Below are positions 2,071 through 20,262 of a DNA stretch of 20,849 nucleotides, one piece after another. The position numbers and the translations under genes are program-made. The first letter of the stretch is position 1. Every line of letters begins with the position of its first letter. Origin of the DNA: a virus; IMG/VR virus record IMGVR_UViG_3300021517_000177, positions 1 to 20,849 of that record, one strand, 5' to 3'. Under the pieces are notes generated by a model, which had not been told where the DNA came from, did not search any database, and was given only the letters and a program-made list of their open reading frames with translations.

Positions 2071-3339
2071 ATGCCTACCATTGGTGAACAATTTCTTAAT
2101 GCTATTCTGACCAACCCCGAAGACGATGCCTCAAGGCTTGTCTATGCTGACTTTTTGCAACAGGAGACTGACCCAAGTTTGCAAGCGCGAGGTGAGTTGA
2201 TTGCGGTGCAAATGGCCCTAAGTCAAAGTGAGATTTCACATGAGCAACGTCAAGAGCTTGTATCAAGAGAGAAGGCCTTGCTCGATGAGTATGGTGAGGT
2301 TTGGTGTGAGTCTTTGGGTCTTAAAAAAATGGAGGTGTGTTTTAACGAGTGGAAAAATGGAGAATGTTTTGATTTTTGGTATATAAAACGAGGTTTTTTC
2401 TATGCCATTGTAGTCACAACGAAGAAATTTCTGGAGGTGTGTGAAGTTGTTTTTTCTAAAGAACCCATTGTGGAGATGAAAGTGTTTTCTTTTGGAGAAG
2501 ATGAAAAAAAACAAAATAAACAACTGAAAAAGTTGTTAGTATCACCTCACCTCGCAAACCTTACAAGCTTGGATTTAGATGATAACAAGCTAGGCGCAAA
2601 AGGGGCACGAGCTCTTGCCAAATCTCCTCATCTTACAAAGCTTACAAGTTTGGATTTGAGGTACAACAACCTAGGCGCAGAAGGCGCCCAAGTTCTTGCC
2701 AAATCTCCTCATTTGGCAAACCTTACAAGTTTGAATTTGAGGTATAACAACTTAGGCGCAGAAGGAGCTAAAGCTCTTGCCAAATCTCCTCATTTGGCAA
2801 ACCTTACAAGTTTGGATTTGAGGTACAACAACATAGGCGCAGAAGGCGCCCAAGTTCTTGCTAACTCACCTAACTTGGCAAATCTTACAAGCTTAGATTT
2901 GGCTAGTAACAATTTAGGCGCAGAAGGCGCCCAAGTTCTTGCTAACTCACCTAACTTGGTAAATCTTACAACCCTAGATTTAGGGTACAATAATTTGGGT
3001 GATAAAAGCGTCATAGATATTGTCAACTCATCCTATCTGGCAAACCTTGCAAATTTAGATTTGGGTAGTAACAACATAGGTATAGGAGGTATCCAAGCTC
3101 TTGCAAACTCACCCTACATTGTAAACCTTACAAGTTTGAATTTGTGGGGTAATAAGATAGGCGCAGAAGGAGCTCAAGTTCTTGCCAAATCTCCTCATCT
3201 TACAAAGCTTACAAGTTTGAATTTGGGTAGTAACAACCTAGGTCTTGAAGGCGTCCAAGTTCTCGTTGACTCACCTTATTTGGTGAATATTAAAAGTTTA
3301 GATTTGACTGGTAATAATTATAAAAAAAGGAAAAAATGA
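2071..3339 (+). CDS. TIGR02996-domain leucine-rich-repeat protein, 422 aa
   Basis: Residues 1-50 match the 'repeat-companion' domain TIGR02996 (NPEDDASRLVYADFLQQ, then SLQARGELIAVQ). Residues ~80-155 form a linker with the RGF-type segment (YIKRGFFYAIVV) that often follows this domain in large bacterial families. Residues 158-422 are nine full and one partial 27-residue leucine-rich repeats of ribonuclease-inhibitor type (consensus SPHLANLTSLDLRYNNLGAEGAQVLAK). LRR domains make curved protein-binding surfaces; the partner is unknown. There is no signal peptide or enzyme domain, so it should be cytoplasmic or packaged with the virion. The stop overlaps the ATG of the next, related gene. The family is abundant in Planctomycetota and Myxococcota; its presence in a phage suggests capture from a host. 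Confidence 0.85.
   Translation: MPTIGEQFLNAILTNPEDDASRLVYADFLQQETDPSLQARGELIAVQMALSQSEISHEQRQELVSREKALLDEYGEVWCESLGLKKMEVCFNEWKNGECFDFWYIKRGFFYAIVVTTKKFLEVCEVVFSKEPIVEMKVFSFGEDEKKQNKQLKKLLVSPHLANLTSLDLDDNKLGAKGARALAKSPHLTKLTSLDLRYNNLGAEGAQVLAKSPHLANLTSLNLRYNNLGAEGAKALAKSPHLANLTSLDLRYNNIGAEGAQVLANSPNLANLTSLDLASNNLGAEGAQVLANSPNLVNLTTLDLGYNNLGDKSVIDIVNSSYLANLANLDLGSNNIGIGGIQALANSPYIVNLTSLNLWGNKIGAEGAQVLAKSPHLTKLTSLNLGSNNLGLEGVQVLVDSPYLVNIKSLDLTGNNYKKRKK
2542..3336 (+). repeat. 81-bp tandem repeats encoding LRR units
   Basis: Coding repeats with an exact 81-base period; for example the string AAATCTCCTC recurs at 2620, 2701 and 2782. Several neighbouring units are nearly identical at the DNA level, especially between 2620 and 2960. 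Such repeats can expand or contract by recombination while keeping the reading frame. A related 81-base array lies in the next gene. Confidence 0.85.
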
Positions 3340-4430
3340 AAAACCTTGGAAAACAATTATTGGCCAAAATATTGGCCGACCCCAAAGATGATGCCGCAAG
3401 GCTTGTATATGCAGACTTTTTGCAACAGCAAACTGATCCAAGTTTGCAAGCGCGAGGTGAGTTTATTGCGGTACAAATTGCACTGATCCAAGGGGAGGGT
3501 AAGATTTCGCCCGAGCGTCGTCAAGAGCTTGCATCAAGAGAGAAGGCCTTGCTCGATGAGTATGGCGAGCTTTGGTATGAAGAATTGGGCCTCCCGGAGA
3601 AGCTTGGTGTGAGATATGAGCGAGGTTTTGTGCATTTTATAAAATGCACTGAGAGTCAATGGCTCGAATCTCATGAGATATTGAAAGGTAGATCTCCTGT
3701 ACAGGAGATCTGTTTTGAATGGCCCGTTTCGATCGAGTTACTTCGGTCAAAAACATTAAAAAACATAAAAATATTAAATTTATATAATAAAGATATAGGC
3801 CCCATGGGGGCAGAGGTTTTGTCTCAATCTTCTCACTTAACAAGTCTTGTTGGGCTTTATCTTAATCATAACAAAATAGGTGATGAAGGGGTAAAGGCTT
3901 TGGCCTCCTCACCTTACTTGGCAAACCTAACAGATCTTTATCTTTTTAATAATAATATAGGTGATGAAGGGGCAAAGGCTTTGGCCTTCTCTCCTTATTT
4001 AGAAAATTTAGTGGATGTATCTTTTGTATGTAATAACATAGGTTCAGAAGGGGCAAAGGCTTTGGCCTCCTCACCAAACTTGAAAAATCTTAAGCAATTT
4101 CATCTCCACAATAATAATATAGGTGATGAAGGGGCAAAGGCTTTGGCCTCCTCACTTCACCTTGCAAACCTTACACATTTTGATCTGAGCCGTAATAACA
4201 TAGGTTCAGAAGGGGCAAAGGCTTTGGCCCAATCATCTTACTTGAAAAATCTTACACATCTTAACATTTATTATAACAACTTAGGTTTAGAAGGTGTTAT
4301 AGCTTTGGCCCAATCACCTTACTTGGTAAATCTTAAAAGTTTGGATTTGAGATATAACAAGGTATGTGCAGAAGACGCTCAAGCTCTTAAAAAATCTCCT
4401 TACTTGGCAAAATGTAAAATACAACTTTGA
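3336..4430 (+). CDS. TIGR02996-domain leucine-rich-repeat protein, second paralogue, 364 aa
   Basis: The start overlaps the stop of the previous gene (ATGA), so translation is probably coupled. Residues 1-50 are a close copy of the TIGR02996 domain of its neighbour (DDAARLVYADFLQQ, SLQARGEFIAVQ). Residues ~75-130 hold the companion segment with YERGFVHF. Residues ~137-364 are about eight 27-residue leucine-rich repeats, here with the consensus SPYLANLTDLYLFNNNIGDEGAKALAS. The repeat sequence differs from that of the first paralogue (GDEGAKALAS against GAEGAQVLAK), so the two domains have evolved separately or are made to bind different partners. There is no secretion signal or catalytic domain. 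It looks like a tandem duplication in a phage accessory island. Confidence 0.85.
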   Translation: MKNLGKQLLAKILADPKDDAARLVYADFLQQQTDPSLQARGEFIAVQIALIQGEGKISPERRQELASREKALLDEYGELWYEELGLPEKLGVRYERGFVHFIKCTESQWLESHEILKGRSPVQEICFEWPVSIELLRSKTLKNIKILNLYNKDIGPMGAEVLSQSSHLTSLVGLYLNHNKIGDEGVKALASSPYLANLTDLYLFNNNIGDEGAKALAFSPYLENLVDVSFVCNNIGSEGAKALASSPNLKNLKQFHLHNNNIGDEGAKALASSLHLANLTHFDLSRNNIGSEGAKALAQSSYLKNLTHLNIYYNNLGLEGVIALAQSPYLVNLKSLDLRYNKVCAEDAQALKKSPYLAKCKIQL

Positions 4431-4439
4431 GGTAGCAAC

Positions 4440-4877
4440 ATGGCATTCGCGATAAAGACAACTAAAACCATGAAAGGTTTTGATGGGCACATTGAAATCT
4501 ACCTACCAGGTGTGGTCCTGTTTTTAGGGGAATACTTATACAGGTTCAAAAACTTGTATGTAGAAGACTGTCTATACTGCTCCCATCGCTGTAAAGAATG
4601 CAAGGTATGTCAAGATCCTGATTGTGATACAGGCTCTGACTGCTCAGATTGTGAGTTTTGTCAAGGCAGTGGCGGGTGTTTTGACAAACATTACGAGGTT
4701 GTGCTTTTGTCAAGAGAGGAGATAGCGAAGCGTCTTATCGAGAAACTTATGCAAGTTTTTCCCAATGAACTTGTATTTTATCCTTCGGAATTGTTGATAG
4801 AGTATTCGTTAAAAGAGCCAACAATCGAGATCTCCGAACAAGAAATTGAAAAAGTTTGGGTTGAAAGGGTTTTTTGA
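4440..4877 (+). CDS. Cysteine-rich, probably zinc-binding protein, 145 aa
   Basis: Residues 44-80 contain ten cysteines (44, 47, 51, 54, 57, 62, 68, 71, 74, 80), several as CxxC pairs, including CEFCQGSGGC, which resembles a DnaJ-type CxxCxGxG motif. This is most simply two metal-binding knuckles. The N-terminal 40 residues look beta-rich (HIEIYLPGVVLFLGEYLYRF). The C-terminal 60 residues look helical and acidic. The ATG follows GAGGT at acceptable spacing, 9 bases after the second LRR gene, so it probably belongs to the same transcript and may act with the LRR proteins. I do not recognise the family. A membrane role is unlikely. Confidence 0.65.
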   Translation: MAFAIKTTKTMKGFDGHIEIYLPGVVLFLGEYLYRFKNLYVEDCLYCSHRCKECKVCQDPDCDTGSDCSDCEFCQGSGGCFDKHYEVVLLSREEIAKRLIEKLMQVFPNELVFYPSELLIEYSLKEPTIEISEQEIEKVWVERVF

Positions 4878-5090: not shown

Positions 5091-5531
5091 ATGTTATCAG
5101 ATAAGCAATATTTAAAGTATTATGAGAAGTCAAATAATTTACCGACATTGGTGGGTACTGATTCTGAAGTTGAATTTGCAAGGTTTTTGAGAAAGGATTA
5201 TCTCAAATCATGGGAATATTCCCATGATGATTTTAGGAGAATATATGTGGAGGACAAAGAATTTTGTAAAAAACACGCAGATTGGTTAGATTTTATTCAA
5301 GCAAACATACTTGTTCTTAGAGAAAAATGGTGTTCAGAAACGAATGCCAAAGTTTTTATAGAGCTACAAACGTCTACAATACCTACGTTAGTTGCAAAGC
5401 TTATGAATGAACAGGAGAATGGTCTTTTACAAGTAAATAAATGCAATGAGTATATATCTATGAAAGATTTGATTTCTATGTGTAAGACAAAATCGGTGAA
5501 GAATTATTTCAATAAAAAGGGGGTAAAATGA
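5091..5531 (+). CDS. Hypothetical protein, 146 aa
   Basis: I chose the ATG at 5091 because GGGAGGT at 5078-5084 lies about 7 bases upstream. The in-frame ATGs at 5058 and 5085 have no usable signal, or one that is too close. The product is mostly helical and charged, with a segment LPTLVGTDSEVEFARFLRKD near the N-terminus and NAKVFIEL in the middle. This weakly recalls uncharacterised proteins with an L-x-GT-xxQ-xxWA-xxLR opening and an AKxxID motif, but I cannot confirm the match. It overlaps the next gene by 4 bases (ATGA), so the two are translationally coupled. No enzyme motif is visible. Confidence 0.65.
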   Translation: MLSDKQYLKYYEKSNNLPTLVGTDSEVEFARFLRKDYLKSWEYSHDDFRRIYVEDKEFCKKHADWLDFIQANILVLREKWCSETNAKVFIELQTSTIPTLVAKLMNEQENGLLQVNKCNEYISMKDLISMCKTKSVKNYFNKKGVK

Positions 5532-5941
5532 TTGGTCTTATACAATGTGGAGCTAAGAAGTTACCCCACAAAGCATGTGCGAAAGATTTATACATAGGAG
5601 GTCTTTATACCATGTATAGGAGAACTATTGAGTTGGTAACTTCTGAATGGTATATCCTATCAGCCAAACATGGTCTTTTAAGGCCCTATGATGAGATCGA
5701 TCCATATGATCAAACTTTACCCAAAGAAGGTTCAACATCGTGGGATTGGCTTGTTTTGAACCAATTGCATAGTATTTTGGGGGGGCGTAATGAAGTTCTT
5801 TGTGTTTTGGCTTCAAGGCGATATACAAGTGGATGGGCTCATGATTTTAGGGTCATAACCCCTGTGGATGGACAATCATTGGGTAGATGTATGTCGAGGG
5901 CGAAGTCTATTCAACGTTTTTTTAATGGGTTAGGAGGATAG
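5528..5941 (+). CDS. DUF6884-type protein, 137 aa
   Basis: This matches the pattern of the DUF6884 group: an N-terminal IGLIQCGAKKL with conserved Cys7, then AKDLYIGGLYTMYRR (18-32), then WYILSAKHGLLRPYDEIDPY (41-60). These motifs recall domains associated with deazaguanine-modifying enzymes of tRNA and DNA and with YaaA-like proteins, but the biochemical role of stand-alone phage copies is not settled to my knowledge. A link to nucleotide or DNA-base modification is only an inference from family resemblance. It overlaps the upstream gene by ATGA and has 1 base to the next gene, inside a run of small early-type genes leading to nrdJ. Confidence 0.75.
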   Translation: MIGLIQCGAKKLPHKACAKDLYIGGLYTMYRRTIELVTSEWYILSAKHGLLRPYDEIDPYDQTLPKEGSTSWDWLVLNQLHSILGGRNEVLCVLASRRYTSGWAHDFRVITPVDGQSLGRCMSRAKSIQRFFNGLGG

Positions 5942-6554: not shown

Positions 6555-9500
6555 ATGATTAATCGTTTCTATACAAAAGAGTATAATGACCCTTTTTTTG
6601 ATGTTGAGTGGGTGAATCGTGATAGCTCAATAAAAAATTCTGAGGGGTATGTAGTTTTTGAACAAAAAAAAGTGGAGGTACCTTCATATTTTAGCCAATT
6701 AGCGACAGATATATTGGCTTCGAAGTATTTTCGAAAAACTGGATTATACTCTGTTGATAAAAGAGGAGAAACTTCATTTAAGGATGTTATTTTACGTATT
6801 GTTAGAACCATTAAGTGTAGGGGGGTTCAAGAAGGTTATTTTTTAAATAAAGAGGAGGCTGATGTATTTGCCGATGAACTTTCTTATATGCTTGTACATC
6901 AAATAGGAGCTTTTAATTCTCCAGTGTGGTTTAATTGTGGGCTTTGGCATGAGTATAGTATAAAAGGTAATGGAGAAGCGTGGGTGTGGTCGAATCAGGA
7001 TTATGAGCCTAAACGTTTTGAAAATGTGTATGAAAGACCTCAATGTTCTGCTTGTTTTATACAATCTGTTAAAGATGATTTGGGAAGTATATATGATCTT
7101 TTGAAAACTGAATCTATGTTGTTTAAGTTTGGTTCAGGTACAGGATCTAACTTTAGTAATATCAGGGGTAAACAGGAGAAACTATCAGGTGGGGGTATGT
7201 CAAGTGGTTTGATGAGTTTTCTTGAGGTGTTTGACAAGGCCGCGGGGGTTATTAAAAGCGGAGGGGTAACACGTCGTGCCGCAAAGATGGTATGTCTTGA
7301 CATGGATCATCCGGAAATATTAGATTTTATCCAATGGAAAGCAAAAGAGGAGAAAAAGGTTAAAGCATTGATTAATGCTGGTTATTCAGATGATTTCAAT
7401 GGTGAAGCCTACAGAACTGTGTCGGGTCAAAATTCAAATAATTCAGTGAGAATTACTGATGATTTTATGCATGCGGTTCAGAATGGAGAAGATTGGTTTA
7501 CTATTTTTCGTGCAAGTGGAGATAAAGGACCTACTTATAAGGCCGATAAATTATGGTCGGAGATAGCTGAATGTGCTTGGGAATGTGCAGATCCAGGTAT
7601 CCAGTATCATTCTACAATTAATAGGTGGCATACTGTTCCAATAACTGGTCCTATTCGTGCAAGTAACCCATGTGTTACTGGGGATACTTTGGTTGCGACA
7701 TCCAAGGGTTTGCAGCGCATAGATTCAATGTTAGATTCGCAAAGTCAAATTGTAGGTTCAGATGGTGAACTCTACACCATTAAACCAGCCTTTAAAACGG
7801 GGGTAAAACCCGTTTACAAACTTTCTACCAAATCAGGTTTAGAACTGAAGCTCACAGCCGATCACCGCGTTCTTACCAAAAACCGCGGTGATGTTGCAGC
7901 ATGCGAGCTCACCAAAGATGATGTTCTTGTTTTGGGCAAACCTCAATTTGGTACACAAACGATGGATCTCCGTTTGGCTCAATTTCTTGGCCTCATGTTG
8001 GGGGACGGTTGTATTTCTGGTGCACAGCAAACGGCTACCCTGACATTTGGTAGCCGTAATAATGATCTCGCTCAAAGGGTCCACAAAGACTTAAATTCCT
8101 ACCGTGTTGAAAAAGTTTCTGATGGGCGCGCTTTGCAAGATACGGAAGTGCGCCGAATCAAGGCCAAAGAAATCGAGCCTGAAACAAGTTTGAACACAAA
8201 CGAAGAACGGCACGTTTTGAGTATCAATACAAGCGTTCGGTGTGTCGTTGAGCCTTTAATGCGATATGCCATCTTGTACCAAGGTAGCCAGCAAAAAGCA
8301 CTTAAAAATGAGGCTTTTCTACTCAACAAAGAGTCCGTCGCTGCCATTTTAAGAGGTCTTTTCACCGCCAATGGTACCGTAGCCAATTATGGAGACAAAT
8401 ATCAGTATATCTCTCTTGAAAGTGTGTCCTCCACCTTGCTTTCTCAAGTGCAACAAATTTTGTTAGGTTTTGGTATCAAATCGAAAATATACCGCAATCG
8501 TAGAGTTGCAGGTCAAACAATGACTTTTTTACCGGATGGCAAAGGCGGTCGTAAAGAATACCCCATACAACAACTTCACTCTTTGCGCATCAGCCGAAGC
8601 TCTCTTTTGATCTTTGAAAAAGAGATAGGTTTTATGCCAGAAAGCGCAAAAAGTCATGCACTCGCGACTTTGAATCAACAAGTGAGTGTCTATGAAGATC
8701 GTTGGGAAGACAAGGTAGAAAGCCTTACATTGATAGGTGAACACCCCGTCTACGATCTCACAGAACCGGTGACGCATCATTTTGTGGCCAATGGTCTTGT
8801 TGTGCACAACTGTTCGGAGTATATGTTTCTCGATGATACCGCATGCAACCTTGCAAGCTTAAATTTAACGCAGTTTTTGCGAGAAGATGGTTCTTTTAAC
8901 TTAGAAGGCTATCGTCATGCGATTCGTGTTTTCTTTATTGCCCAAGAAATTTTGGTTGATTTTTCTTCCTACCCTACACGTGATATTGCCCGTAATAGTC
9001 ATAATTACAGACCTCTTGGGTTAGGGTATGCCAACCTTGGCACTTTGCTGATGATCCAAGGTATTCCCTACGACAGTGATGCAGGGCGGGCGTGGTGTGG
9101 GGCTTTGACTTCTATTCTCACAGGTCATGCCTACCGTGTGTCTGCAGAAATGGCCGCACGAAAAGGCCCCTTTGCGGGTTATACCGCCAATCGTGAGCCC
9201 TTTTTGCGTGTCATGGGTATGCATCAAGAAGCTGCTCGTGAAATTAATTCTAAAGCTTGCCCCCCTGAGCTTTTCAAAGCGGCTCAGGAGGAATGGGTAT
9301 TGGCAATTGATTTAGGTAAAAAAGTAGGTTTTCGTAATGCTCAGGCGACTGTACTTGCGCCTACAGGCACTATTGGTTTGCTTATGGATTGTGACACAAC
9401 GGGTATTGAACCTGATTTTTCTATTGTGAAGTTTAAGAAACTCGCCGGGGGAGGGTATTTTAAAATTGTCAATCAATCGGTGCCCCAAGCTTTGCGCAAA

Positions 9501-10826
9501 TTGGGGTATTCTGAGCCTCAAGTGCAAGATATCTTGGCCTATGTTTTGGGCACAAACACTTTGCTTGGAGCTCCACATATCAACCGTGCAAGCCTCAAAG
9601 CCAAAGGGCTTACCAACGAAGATCTCGACAAAATTGAAGCGGCCTTGCCCTCATCCTTAGATTTGAGAGGTGCGTTCTCACCTTGGGTGCTTGGCAAAGA
9701 GACCATGGTGCGCTTTGGTTTTGTTGACACCAAACCAGGTTTTGATCTGCTCTCCAACCTTGGGTTTTCAGCTGAACAAATCGAAGAAGCCGGTGATCAT
9801 ATTTCAGGTAACATGACCATTGAAGGTGCACCTCACCTTCGAGGCGAACATTTGCCCGTGTTTGATTGTGCCAATCGATGTGGTAAAAAAGGTCAAAGGT
9901 TTTTGGCGCCCATGTCTCATTTGCGCATGATGGCGGCGGCCCAACAATTTTTGTCGGGGGCCATCAGCAAAACTGTTAATTTACCCAATGATGCCACCGT
10001 TAAAGACATTGAAGACATCTACTACCAAGGTTGGAAACTTGGATTAAAGGCGGTGGCGGTATATAGGGATGGTTGTAAAAATTCACAACCATTATCAACA
10101 AGTGGAGTTCGAAAAGAAGTTCAAAAAAACAATGTGGAGAATCAAGAAGAACTTCCTAAGTGTAGGGAGTCTAATGTGAGCGGCGAAATTGATGAGTTTA
10201 CATCGAATGCATTTAATCATGGGCAAAGGCGTAGATTACCTGAAAAAAGAACAGGTTTTACCCAAGAAGCCCGCGTGGGCGGGCACAAGATTTTCTTGCG
10301 TACAGGCGATTATGCAGAAGGTAAATTGGGCGAAATCTTCATTGACATGCATAAGGAAGGGGCGGCCTTCCGTTCGATGATGAACTGCTTTGCCATGTCT
10401 GTGAGCATTGGCTTGCAACACGGTGTGCCCCTTGAAACCTATGTTGAACAATTTACCTTCACACGCTTTGAGCCCCAAGGTACGGTCGAAGGGCATCCTA
10501 ACATTAAGTTAGCAACTTCGATTGTTGACTATATTTTCAGGGTGCTCGGTGTTGAATACCTACGCCGTTATGACTTGTGCCAAGTGAAATCAGAGAATTC
10601 AAAATTGGAGGAATCAAAAAAACATTATGTACCTCCAGTTATTAAGAAACATATTGGGATACAGGTTGTGGATAATGGTGAGTTGCAAACTAAAAATAGT
10701 TTGAATGATCAATTAGATACTATGATGGGAGATGCCCCTATGTGTGATGTGTGTGGGCACACAACGGTTCGCAATGGTACTTGTTATAGATGTTTGAATT
10801 GTGGAAATTCTATGGGTTGTAGTTAA
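6555..10826 (+). CDS. nrdJ: Class II (B12-dependent) ribonucleoside-diphosphate reductase with intein, 1423 aa
   Basis: Reduces ribonucleotides to deoxyribonucleotides using adenosylcobalamin, supplying dNTPs for phage DNA synthesis in the cytoplasm. Exteins are residues 1-372 and 753-1423, giving a 1043-residue mature enzyme. Seen: QCSACF with C164/C167 and the partner Cys in DDTACNLASLNL (C764), the expected redox pair; the N-P-C-S-E active-site motif (N371, P372, then C753, S754, E755 after splicing), whose Cys should be the thiyl-radical residue; the phosphate loop PTGTIG (936-941); a domain near 1220-1320 (FAMSVSIGLQHGVPLETYVE) typical of the NrdJ C-terminus; and a terminal cysteine cluster (C1397, C1400, C1410, C1413, C1416, C1422) likely to re-reduce the active site or bind zinc. 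AGGAG precedes the start. Composition changes sharply from the intein onward. Confidence 0.93.
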   Translation: MINRFYTKEYNDPFFDVEWVNRDSSIKNSEGYVVFEQKKVEVPSYFSQLATDILASKYFRKTGLYSVDKRGETSFKDVILRIVRTIKCRGVQEGYFLNKEEADVFADELSYMLVHQIGAFNSPVWFNCGLWHEYSIKGNGEAWVWSNQDYEPKRFENVYERPQCSACFIQSVKDDLGSIYDLLKTESMLFKFGSGTGSNFSNIRGKQEKLSGGGMSSGLMSFLEVFDKAAGVIKSGGVTRRAAKMVCLDMDHPEILDFIQWKAKEEKKVKALINAGYSDDFNGEAYRTVSGQNSNNSVRITDDFMHAVQNGEDWFTIFRASGDKGPTYKADKLWSEIAECAWECADPGIQYHSTINRWHTVPITGPIRASNPCVTGDTLVATSKGLQRIDSMLDSQSQIVGSDGELYTIKPAFKTGVKPVYKLSTKSGLELKLTADHRVLTKNRGDVAACELTKDDVLVLGKPQFGTQTMDLRLAQFLGLMLGDGCISGAQQTATLTFGSRNNDLAQRVHKDLNSYRVEKVSDGRALQDTEVRRIKAKEIEPETSLNTNEERHVLSINTSVRCVVEPLMRYAILYQGSQQKALKNEAFLLNKESVAAILRGLFTANGTVANYGDKYQYISLESVSSTLLSQVQQILLGFGIKSKIYRNRRVAGQTMTFLPDGKGGRKEYPIQQLHSLRISRSSLLIFEKEIGFMPESAKSHALATLNQQVSVYEDRWEDKVESLTLIGEHPVYDLTEPVTHHFVANGLVVHNCSEYMFLDDTACNLASLNLTQFLREDGSFNLEGYRHAIRVFFIAQEILVDFSSYPTRDIARNSHNYRPLGLGYANLGTLLMIQGIPYDSDAGRAWCGALTSILTGHAYRVSAEMAARKGPFAGYTANREPFLRVMGMHQEAAREINSKACPPELFKAAQEEWVLAIDLGKKVGFRNAQATVLAPTGTIGLLMDCDTTGIEPDFSIVKFKKLAGGGYFKIVNQSVPQALRKLGYSEPQVQDILAYVLGTNTLLGAPHINRASLKAKGLTNEDLDKIEAALPSSLDLRGAFSPWVLGKETMVRFGFVDTKPGFDLLSNLGFSAEQIEEAGDHISGNMTIEGAPHLRGEHLPVFDCANRCGKKGQRFLAPMSHLRMMAAAQQFLSGAISKTVNLPNDATVKDIEDIYYQGWKLGLKAVAVYRDGCKNSQPLSTSGVRKEVQKNNVENQEELPKCRESNVSGEIDEFTSNAFNHGQRRRLPEKRTGFTQEARVGGHKIFLRTGDYAEGKLGEIFIDMHKEGAAFRSMMNCFAMSVSIGLQHGVPLETYVEQFTFTRFEPQGTVEGHPNIKLATSIVDYIFRVLGVEYLRRYDLCQVKSENSKLEESKKHYVPPVIKKHIGIQVVDNGELQTKNSLNDQLDTMMGDAPMCDVCGHTTVRNGTCYRCLNCGNSMGCS
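7671..8810 (+). other. In-frame intein with LAGLIDADG endonuclease domain, 380 aa
   Basis: Residues 373-752 of the precursor. Splicing blocks: A, CVTGDTLVATSKG, with Cys1 at 373; B, LKLTADHRVLT, with the conserved Thr and His; F/G, VYDLTEPVTHHFVANGLVVHN, ending in the His-Asn pair. The next residue is Cys753, the +1 nucleophile. All residues needed for standard class 1 splicing are present, so it should be active and leave SNP-CSEY. Between the blocks lies a dodecapeptide endonuclease: motif 1 FLGLMLGDGCI with catalytic D484; motif 2 ILRGLFTANGTV, where Asn606 stands at the expected catalytic Asp. The endonuclease may therefore be inactive or impaired. Length is typical of a full-size intein. 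Confidence 0.93.
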
Positions 10827-10843
10827 GGAAAAGGGTTTTGATT

Positions 10844-11728
10844 ATGAATATTGAAGAATGTAAGGGTAGGTATATACCAGTATTAGACCATGGATTTGTT
10901 GCGTTGGTTGATAGTATGGGGGGTGATGAAACTATAGAAAATGCAGCTCGATTGTCATATTTGAGTGAACCGAGAGGAGAGGAGGTACGGAGGAAGTTAA
11001 TACGTTATTTATATGCTCATCAGCATATGTCACCCTTTGAAATGGTGGAACTTGTATTTGATATTGGTCTACCTATTTTTGTCATGAGACAACTTGTAAG
11101 GCATAGAACGGCATCACTTAATGAGGTTTCCGCAAGATACACTCAACTTTCAGATCTATTTTATGTTCCAGAATCTTCGAGAATACAAGCTCAAAGTAAA
11201 ACCAATAAACAAGGTTCTGGTGAAACATTGGAAGAGTATAAAGTAGAACATATTCTCAAAGCTATGCAGGGTTCGAATAATATTGCATATGCAACTTATG
11301 ATACATTACTTGAATTGGGTTTGAGTAGAGAAGTGGCTAGGGTATGTTTACCGGTTTCTGTATATACAAGGGTTATATGGAAAATGGATCTACGTAATTT
11401 ACTTCATATGTTGGGTCTTAGGTGTGAAGAACATGCTCAATGGGAGGTTAGACAATATGCTGATGTGATGGCGGGTTTTGCTAAGATTGTAGCACCGATG
11501 GCGTTTGAAGCTTGGAAAAATTTTACTTATATGGGTATTCGATTGGGAGAGGAGGAATTGGAGATGTTGCATAAGTGTATGACTTTGGGGGGGTATGAGG
11601 ATGAAGCAACAAAGGTTATTGATAGGTTGGATAAAGCTTTGAGTTTGGGTAAGAAGTCTTTTGATATTGATTTCAGTAAGGCTAGATCTAAATGTTTTTA
11701 TGACGAGAAGTATATAAGTGAAAAATGA
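10844..11728 (+). CDS. thyX: Flavin-dependent thymidylate synthase ThyX, 294 aa
   Basis: Methylates dUMP to dTMP with methylenetetrahydrofolate, FAD and NADPH, without producing dihydrofolate. The signature RHRxxSxNExSxRY is complete: RHRTASLNEVSARY (residues 86-99). Other family blocks are HMSPFEMVEL (61-70), a second conserved region DLRNLLHMLGLRCEEHAQWE, and the following QYA helix. The size suits the family (about 220-300). I prefer the ATG at 10844, 8 bases after AAGGG, over a TTG at 10838. It lies 17 bases after nrdJ, an obvious functional pair for making phage dNTPs. The stop overlaps the start of a small membrane protein gene (ATGA). Codon use is AT-rich, unlike the central part of nrdJ. 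Confidence 0.95.
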   Translation: MNIEECKGRYIPVLDHGFVALVDSMGGDETIENAARLSYLSEPRGEEVRRKLIRYLYAHQHMSPFEMVELVFDIGLPIFVMRQLVRHRTASLNEVSARYTQLSDLFYVPESSRIQAQSKTNKQGSGETLEEYKVEHILKAMQGSNNIAYATYDTLLELGLSREVARVCLPVSVYTRVIWKMDLRNLLHMLGLRCEEHAQWEVRQYADVMAGFAKIVAPMAFEAWKNFTYMGIRLGEEELEMLHKCMTLGGYEDEATKVIDRLDKALSLGKKSFDIDFSKARSKCFYDEKYISEK

Positions 11729-19467: not shown

Positions 19468-20262
19468 ATGAATGAGGCGCAATCAATTGATAAATTAGAT
19501 CCAAACATCACAACTACCCCCGTTGTTGTGCATCAAGAATCAAATGGAGCAGTTAAACCTCCTACTCCACTTTCTCATCAAACATCTCAATCCAAGCAAG
19601 AAATACCCGATGATCCAAGTGAAGCAACCAATGAAGCTTCCTATGTGATCAAAGGGTCAGATTTCAAAGCTCGTATGGATCGAGCCAATAAGTCGTTTCT
19701 GAAGAAGCTTGGCGTAGAGTCAAAAGAAGAACTGGAGACAAAACTTACCAAGTACAATGAAATGGAGAAACAACTTGAAACCCAACGTCGGGCAACAATG
19801 AGTGAACAGGAGAAGCTCAGAGAAGACTTGGAAAGAGAACGTAAAGCTCGCACGCATTATCAAAACAAGCTTCAAATGGAACGTGATCGAGCAGCAATAA
19901 GCAAAGAGGAGAAAAGGGTCTACCTTGCGGCTTCCAAGTTTATAAATCCTAAACTCATTCCCGCAGCAGCAGATAAATACAAAAAGTATCTCAAACAAAA
20001 CTACACACCCAAACAAATCGATCGATTAACAGAGAAAAACATGGTCGAGTTTTTCAATAGGTTTGTGAAGAAAAACCCCGAATTTTCAAAGGATTTCATG
20101 AAAGTAGCTAAACGCCCTCAAGTTGTTCCAACCAATGGGCCCAAGGTAGATCCTCCGAATATCCAGACGACATCTCTTTCAAATACAAAAACTGCTGCAC
20201 CAAACAAACCTAATTCTCTTTCCAATCAAGAATTCAAAGAGAAATTCGGATTTATGCCCTGA
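19468..20262 (+). CDS. Probable capsid scaffolding protein, 264 aa
   Basis: Would guide capsid assembly from inside the procapsid. Residues 1-65 are disordered and Thr/Pro/Gln-rich. Residues ~85-150 form a strongly charged coiled coil (EELETKLTKYNEMEKQLETQ, then EKLREDLERERKARTHYQNK). Residues ~155-220 are helical and basic (RVYLAASKFINPKLIPAAAD, TEKNMVEFFNRFVKKNPEF). It ends in a short basic and aromatic tail (NQEFKEKFGFMP), like the C-terminal capsid-binding ends of scaffolds. It sits directly before the capsid gene, the usual scaffold position. AGGAG precedes the ATG. A strong terminator follows, separating its expression from that of the capsid gene. No protease motif is visible. Confidence 0.75.
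   Translation: MNEAQSIDKLDPNITTTPVVVHQESNGAVKPPTPLSHQTSQSKQEIPDDPSEATNEASYVIKGSDFKARMDRANKSFLKKLGVESKEELETKLTKYNEMEKQLETQRRATMSEQEKLREDLERERKARTHYQNKLQMERDRAAISKEEKRVYLAASKFINPKLIPAAADKYKKYLKQNYTPKQIDRLTEKNMVEFFNRFVKKNPEFSKDFMKVAKRPQVVPTNGPKVDPPNIQTTSLSNTKTAAPNKPNSLSNQEFKEKFGFMP

Follow-up and report, generated by a model that had tools for sequence, protein, structure and literature searches.

The closest described relatives of the intein reported here can be distinguished by where they interrupt their ribonucleotide reductase (RNR) host proteins (insertion points are marked below with a slash). The phage RIR1 inteins: those of Bacillus phage SPbeta BnrdE (SNL/CVTGET...VTGN/CSEV) and Corynebacterium phage P1201 NrdE (SNL/CVTGDT...VTGN/CSEI), both sequenced cultured phages, occupy homologous positions and have the radical cysteine as the +1 residue. 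The split intein NrdJ-1: this is inserted in an NrdJ after the radical cysteine (NPC/SEI), with a serine as its +1 residue (PMC13123727). The archaeal intein PI-PfuI: this is PfuRIR1-1, the RIR1-1 intein of P. furiosus (PMC7090010). The Aquifex aeolicus NrdB intein: this splits catalytic residues of the R2 subunit, at its di-iron site (PMC8772380). Finally, the bacterial NrdJ inteins found in this work (L259, L335-L339 and, from Myxococcota, L353): these are inserted at ASNP/C...HN/CSE(Y/F)MF, and display a block A of the form CVTGDT and a LAGLIDADG endonuclease.

The phage intein reported here is most similar to the last of these, with the same insertion site, block A and endonuclease and 46-59% identity; it differs in residing in a phage rather than in a cellular host, in having an asparagine where they retain the aspartate of the second LAGLIDADG motif, and in an additional insert of ~12 residues. 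With the SPbeta and P1201 inteins it shares the radical cysteine as +1 residue, but their hosts are class Ib enzymes whereas ours is a class II enzyme; moreover, the SPbeta intein is only 26% identical to it and ends in GN instead of HN, while that of P1201 is short. NrdJ-1 likewise lies at the radical cysteine of an NrdJ but differs in position and in being split. PI-PfuI (1dq3) matches it in its Hint and LAGLIDADG fold (E 4e-15) at 15% identity, and the Aquifex intein resembles it in separating catalytic residues of an RNR, albeit in a different subunit. We interpret the element, with a probability of about 90%, as an ordinary class 1 LAGLIDADG mobile intein at a widespread site directly before the radical cysteine of RNRs.

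The intein and the radical cysteine of the phage NrdJ

The window, i.e. the whole stretch of DNA that was analysed, comprises a complete virus record of IMG/VR (20,849 bases), a single contig of an uncultivated virus. It contains an intact nrdJ ORF (6555..10826, + strand, as are its parts and thyX below) with an uninterrupted frame of 1423 aa, which codes for the precursor of a class II (B12-dependent) RNR: it matches TIGR02504 with 567 bits (cut-off 400) and Pfam Ribonuc_red_lgC (E 1.9e-130), exceeds the curated Pfam cut-offs for the class II N domain and the TSCPD domain, and in phmmer alignments against the PDB its active-site cysteines align in SACF and TACNL. Directly 3' of it is thyX (10838..11728), a nucleotide-metabolism neighbor that codes for a flavin-dependent thymidylate synthase, and genes downstream have matches in families of portal, head morphogenesis and scaffold proteins. 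Positions 5528-5941 code for a DUF6884 protein that weakly resembles YaaA.

The intein spans residues 373-752 (7671..8810; 380 aa) and combines a Hint domain with a LAGLIDADG endonuclease. It scores 52.4 bits against Pfam Intein_splicing (PF14890; cut-off 35.8), 72.5 bits against LAGLIDADG_3 (cut-off 22.5) and, from residue 373 onward, 31.7 bits against NCBIfam intein_Nterm (TIGR01445; cut-off 24.5). Its predicted structure (mean pLDDT 86.7) matches the endonuclease-bearing PDB inteins TliVMA, PI-PfuI and PI-SceI with E-values of ~1e-17 to 1e-13. The intein is thus confirmed as real and not a chance resemblance, at the place given by the initial annotation, whose end at 8813 takes in the codon of the +1 cysteine. 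The junctions read SNP/CVTGDT...VVHN/CSEYMF, flanked by ...RASNP and CSEYMFLDD, and all the residues expected of a class 1 intein are present: Cys1 of block A (CVTGDTLV; 7671..7673), T62 and H65 of block B (T-A-D-H; 7854..7865), the penultimate His379 and terminal Asn380 (8805..8810), and the +1 cysteine. Upon alignment with 10 homologous inteins, C1, T62, H65, H379 and N380 are invariant in all 11. With these residues intact, we infer that the intein splices: a thioester would form at Cys1 and be attacked by the +1 cysteine of the extein, followed by cyclization of Asn380, thereby joining SNP to CSEYM and restoring the catalytic loop.

In phmmer alignments against the PDB, the extein segments ...SNPC (372/373) and CSEYM (753 onward) align to one and the same cysteine, namely Cys476 of the NrdJ in 7b9p/7b9q and Cys322 of the Thermotoga maritima NrdJ in 1xje, both of which sit in an N-P-C-(S/G)-E motif. 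We take Cys322 to be the residue bearing the thiyl radical, equivalent to Cys439 of E. coli NrdA. The +1 cysteine (8811..8813) therefore corresponds to the radical cysteine of the mature NrdJ (NP-C-SE). Thus, the solved NrdJ structures uphold the earlier proposal that the radical cysteine is the splice-junction cysteine, and the junction ...HN/CSE bears out the related one that it doubles as the +1 splicing nucleophile. Because residue 1 of the intein is also a cysteine, the precursor retains the letters SNPC, though without the strand that follows. The alignment of the +1 cysteine with the radical position nonetheless makes activity of the unspliced precursor very unlikely, and its inactivity can be soundly inferred. 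The further contention that dNTP supply is fully dependent on splicing was too strong, since the phage host will have an RNR of its own; in addition, any intein in an essential site imposes a like dependence.

The first LAGLIDADG motif of the endonuclease (block C, FLGLMLGDGC; 7983..8012) retains its catalytic Asp112. The second, which takes the form GLFT(T/S/A)DGTV in close homologues, reads GLFTANGTV, with Asn234 (codon AAT, 8370..8372) in place of the aspartate. The catalytic aspartates are those of blocks C and E; in PhoVMA, a link has been drawn between losing them and inactivity of the endonuclease (PMC8966425). An active enzyme should have the aspartate in both motifs; hence, the asparagine in motif 2 suggests that the endonuclease is probably inactive. 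An intein at NP/C in another virus NrdJ (L132) also has an asparagine in this motif (GLFSANG) and has probably lost its endonuclease function in parallel.

Codon use, extein phylogeny and a mosaic nrdJ

Base composition changes sharply along nrdJ. The GC skew drops from ~+0.4 to ~0 at the start of the intein and recovers past ~10.05 kb. Upon segmentation by third codon position, nt 7770 emerges as the main breakpoint (0/200 permutations), with a range of 7659..7773 that takes in the 5' edge of the intein at 7671. Of the NNC/NNT codons, NNC makes up 0.11 in the N-extein (aa 1-372, ending in ...RASNP; 6555..7670), which is fast-evolving and phage-like in codon use, and 0.12 (2/16 NNC) in the first 33 intein codons. 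Its share then rises to 0.43 over the remaining intein codons and 0.35 in the barrel part of the C-extein (aa 753-1165; 8811..10049), which combines foreign-like codon use with a slower branch. Thereafter it alternates: 0.19 in a linker closer to the phage (aa 1166-1240; 10050..10274), 0.51 in the foreign-like TSCPD region (aa 1241-1342; 10275..10580), and 0.07 in the phage-like C-terminal end with its cysteine-rich CxxC tail (10581..10823). The N-extein differs significantly from the intein (p 3e-13) and from the C-extein (p 2e-9), and resembles the neighboring thyX (0.07) and portal (0.14) genes. Among 14 other intein-bearing RNR genes used as controls, only two show a significant codon step between the N- and C-exteins. 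The contig itself is patchy in composition, with shares of 0.38-0.39 in the ORFs at 1672-2016, 4440-4877 and 19468-20262; since some other contig genes reach 0.3-0.4, the codon use is foreign-like only in a relative sense.

In quick trees of 68 proteins, both the N- and C-exteins join the NrdJ of a Myxococcota MAG (L250), with support of 93 and 90, respectively. The end branch of the contig is, however, 0.88 in the N-extein tree versus 0.29 in the C-extein tree, and its N/C distance ratio is 1.42 as against 0.81-1.00 in 15 reference relatives. The C-extein trees and identities point to Myxococcota as a candidate host group. Two adjoining genes (2071-3339 and 3336-4430) code for leucine-rich repeat proteins, each with an N-terminal TIGR02996 domain, and are less phage-like in codon use than their neighbors; they are possibly recent cell-derived cargo or host-interaction proteins. 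TIGR02996 exceeded its cut-off in 8 of 189 sampled genomes of one phylum (that of G002) and in 0 of 14 control genomes, which is weakly consistent with a Myxococcota host.

Taken together, we consider it fairly probable that the intein and the bulk of the C-terminal portion of nrdJ were brought in from a cellular gene. The simplest account starts from a myxobacteria-like nrdJ already resident in the phage, whose stretch from the intein to the barrel was replaced more recently by that of a cellular allele. Here the donor would be a myxobacteria-like gene, which would have entered the older phage-resident nrdJ by recombination, in an exchange such as homing with co-conversion would produce, with the endonuclease since apparently inactivated by the D to N change. 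That homing was the cause of the mosaic is, in turn, more tentative: in this scenario, homing with a long, one-sided co-conversion would have replaced the radical-site half of an older, phage-adapted nrdJ with that of an intein-bearing, myxobacteria-like host gene, and the second catalytic aspartate of the endonuclease would have been lost later. There are precedents for the individual elements: nuclease genes occur at the borders of phage-phage exchange, and the NrdA of ICP1 contains an intein (PMC10448857); extein residues have been co-converted at the haloarchaeal MCM (PMC10643990); and recombination within the gene is seen in intein-bearing phage methylases (PMC9957025). Homing with co-conversion would be expected to leave a single seam where the intein is inserted. 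Against pure homing speak a best break ~100 nt inside the intein and the need for several exchanges. As the first 33 intein codons are phage-like, the breakpoint may lie at that internal point and not at the homing cut, which would fit an exchange between two alleles already bearing the intein; the return of phage-like codon use in the linker and C-terminus requires more than one exchange.

An unlikely alternative is that a whole intein-bearing nrdJ was acquired once from a host and that its codon differences reflect uneven selection instead of recombination. The grouping of both halves with the same sister (L250) is in its favor, but it has to accommodate a threefold difference in NNC/NNY between adjoining segments of one gene and a threefold longer branch for the N half, when 15 relatives show N/C ratios of 0.8-1.0; nor would a single acquisition lead one to expect so abrupt a change where the intein begins. 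Far less probable still is that metagenome assembly fused a phage nrdJ to a cellular one. While the window is a single contig of an uncultivated virus and no close relative of the intein or the N-extein was found in IMG/VR, a chimera would need at least three switches, every one of them in frame within a continuous ORF, and would have to explain why phage-like codon use returns at the 3' end.

No donor with the foreign codon use of the contig was found, the nearest C-extein being 74% identical. Close-relative scans recovered no relative of the intein in viral and genome contigs and none of the N-extein in viral contigs, and a blastn search of phage records with the intein plus C-extein returned only a 150-base match. 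In 11 related loci found through their portal proteins (35-45% identity), nrdJ is absent near the structural genes, and in eight portal-relative records searched whole there was no nrdJ match beyond one weak stretch of 55 aa; hence, these relatives furnished no sister gene with an empty site.

Recurrence of the site, regulation and significance

The insertion lies directly before the radical cysteine and thus belongs to the NP/C (or NL/C) radical-cysteine allele of RNR inteins, and not to the NrdJ-1 allele (NPC/SEI), which follows the cysteine and has a +1 serine; the initial annotation had rightly placed the latter one residue later (PMC13123727). Scanning 2.9 million virus contigs with a DNA pattern for NP/Cxx-GDT yielded at least 119 matches, of which at least 79 have exteins matching the contig RNR in BLAST, with both exteins recognized in at least 54 of these. 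Seven further loci without BLAST support have class II RNR domains by Pfam, some just under the cut-off. The pattern for the neighboring site, NPC/C, gave 85 matches: three resemble the contig NrdJ in BLAST, and three others checked by Pfam have class II RNR domains. L165, L169, L178 and similar loci encode viral class II RNRs that contain RNR-II insertion domains; their intein is at NPC/C, so that the radical cysteine is the -1 residue. One further class II RNR ORF (L153:1268-5446, - strand; 1393 aa) has two intein regions, the second at ~aa 786-1074.

Homologous inteins of the form ASNP/CVTGDT...HN/CSE(Y/F)MF occur in 6 of 46 genomes of a bacterial phylum (that of L259). The nearest intein relative found, with 56-59% identity, is at the same site in a Myxococcota genome (G354) whose NrdJ stems from a different branch (40% for the N-extein and 56% for the C-extein), while the nearest C-exteins lack an intein; the intein therefore moves independently of its host gene, and its presence is patchy, being absent from most sampled NrdJ relatives. 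At the radical cysteine, then, there are two neighboring positions at which inteins recur in viruses and bacteria. NP/C is probably favored as the most conserved DNA of the gene, because imprecise deletion would be hard there and new alleles would always carry the target.

Placement at the radical cysteine had also prompted the suggestion of a redox or temperature switch governing dNTP supply of the phage, which we regard as very doubtful. As both C1 and C+1 are cysteines, a disulfide could form between them, like that between catalytic cysteines by which the Pol II intein of P. abyssi is blocked (PMC5874633), and the Aquifex R2 protein indicates that an RNR intein is able to affect cofactor loading (PMC8772380). 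However, C1 combined with C+1 is common among inteins, so that the disulfide argument applies to many of them; the recurrence of the site over many RNRs and phages is what a mobile element whose target is conserved would show; and the patchy presence likewise does not favor a regulatory role. Control by redox state or temperature was thus not borne out by any evidence specific to this contig, and NP/C being one of two adjacent recurrent RNR sites, the placement needs no special regulatory story. The notion of a distinct new site particular to this NrdJ, proposed as a neighboring variant from its one-residue offset to NrdJ-1, is rejected with near certainty, as the identical site is held by SPbeta, P1201, many IMG/VR RNRs and bacterial nrdJ genes and is already catalogued as common, the very finding that the initial annotation had named as telling against it.

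What sets this locus apart is that, in a mosaic nrdJ, an edge of the intein coincides with a probable seam of recombination joining phage-like to cell-like DNA, which makes it a concrete example of such an overlap.
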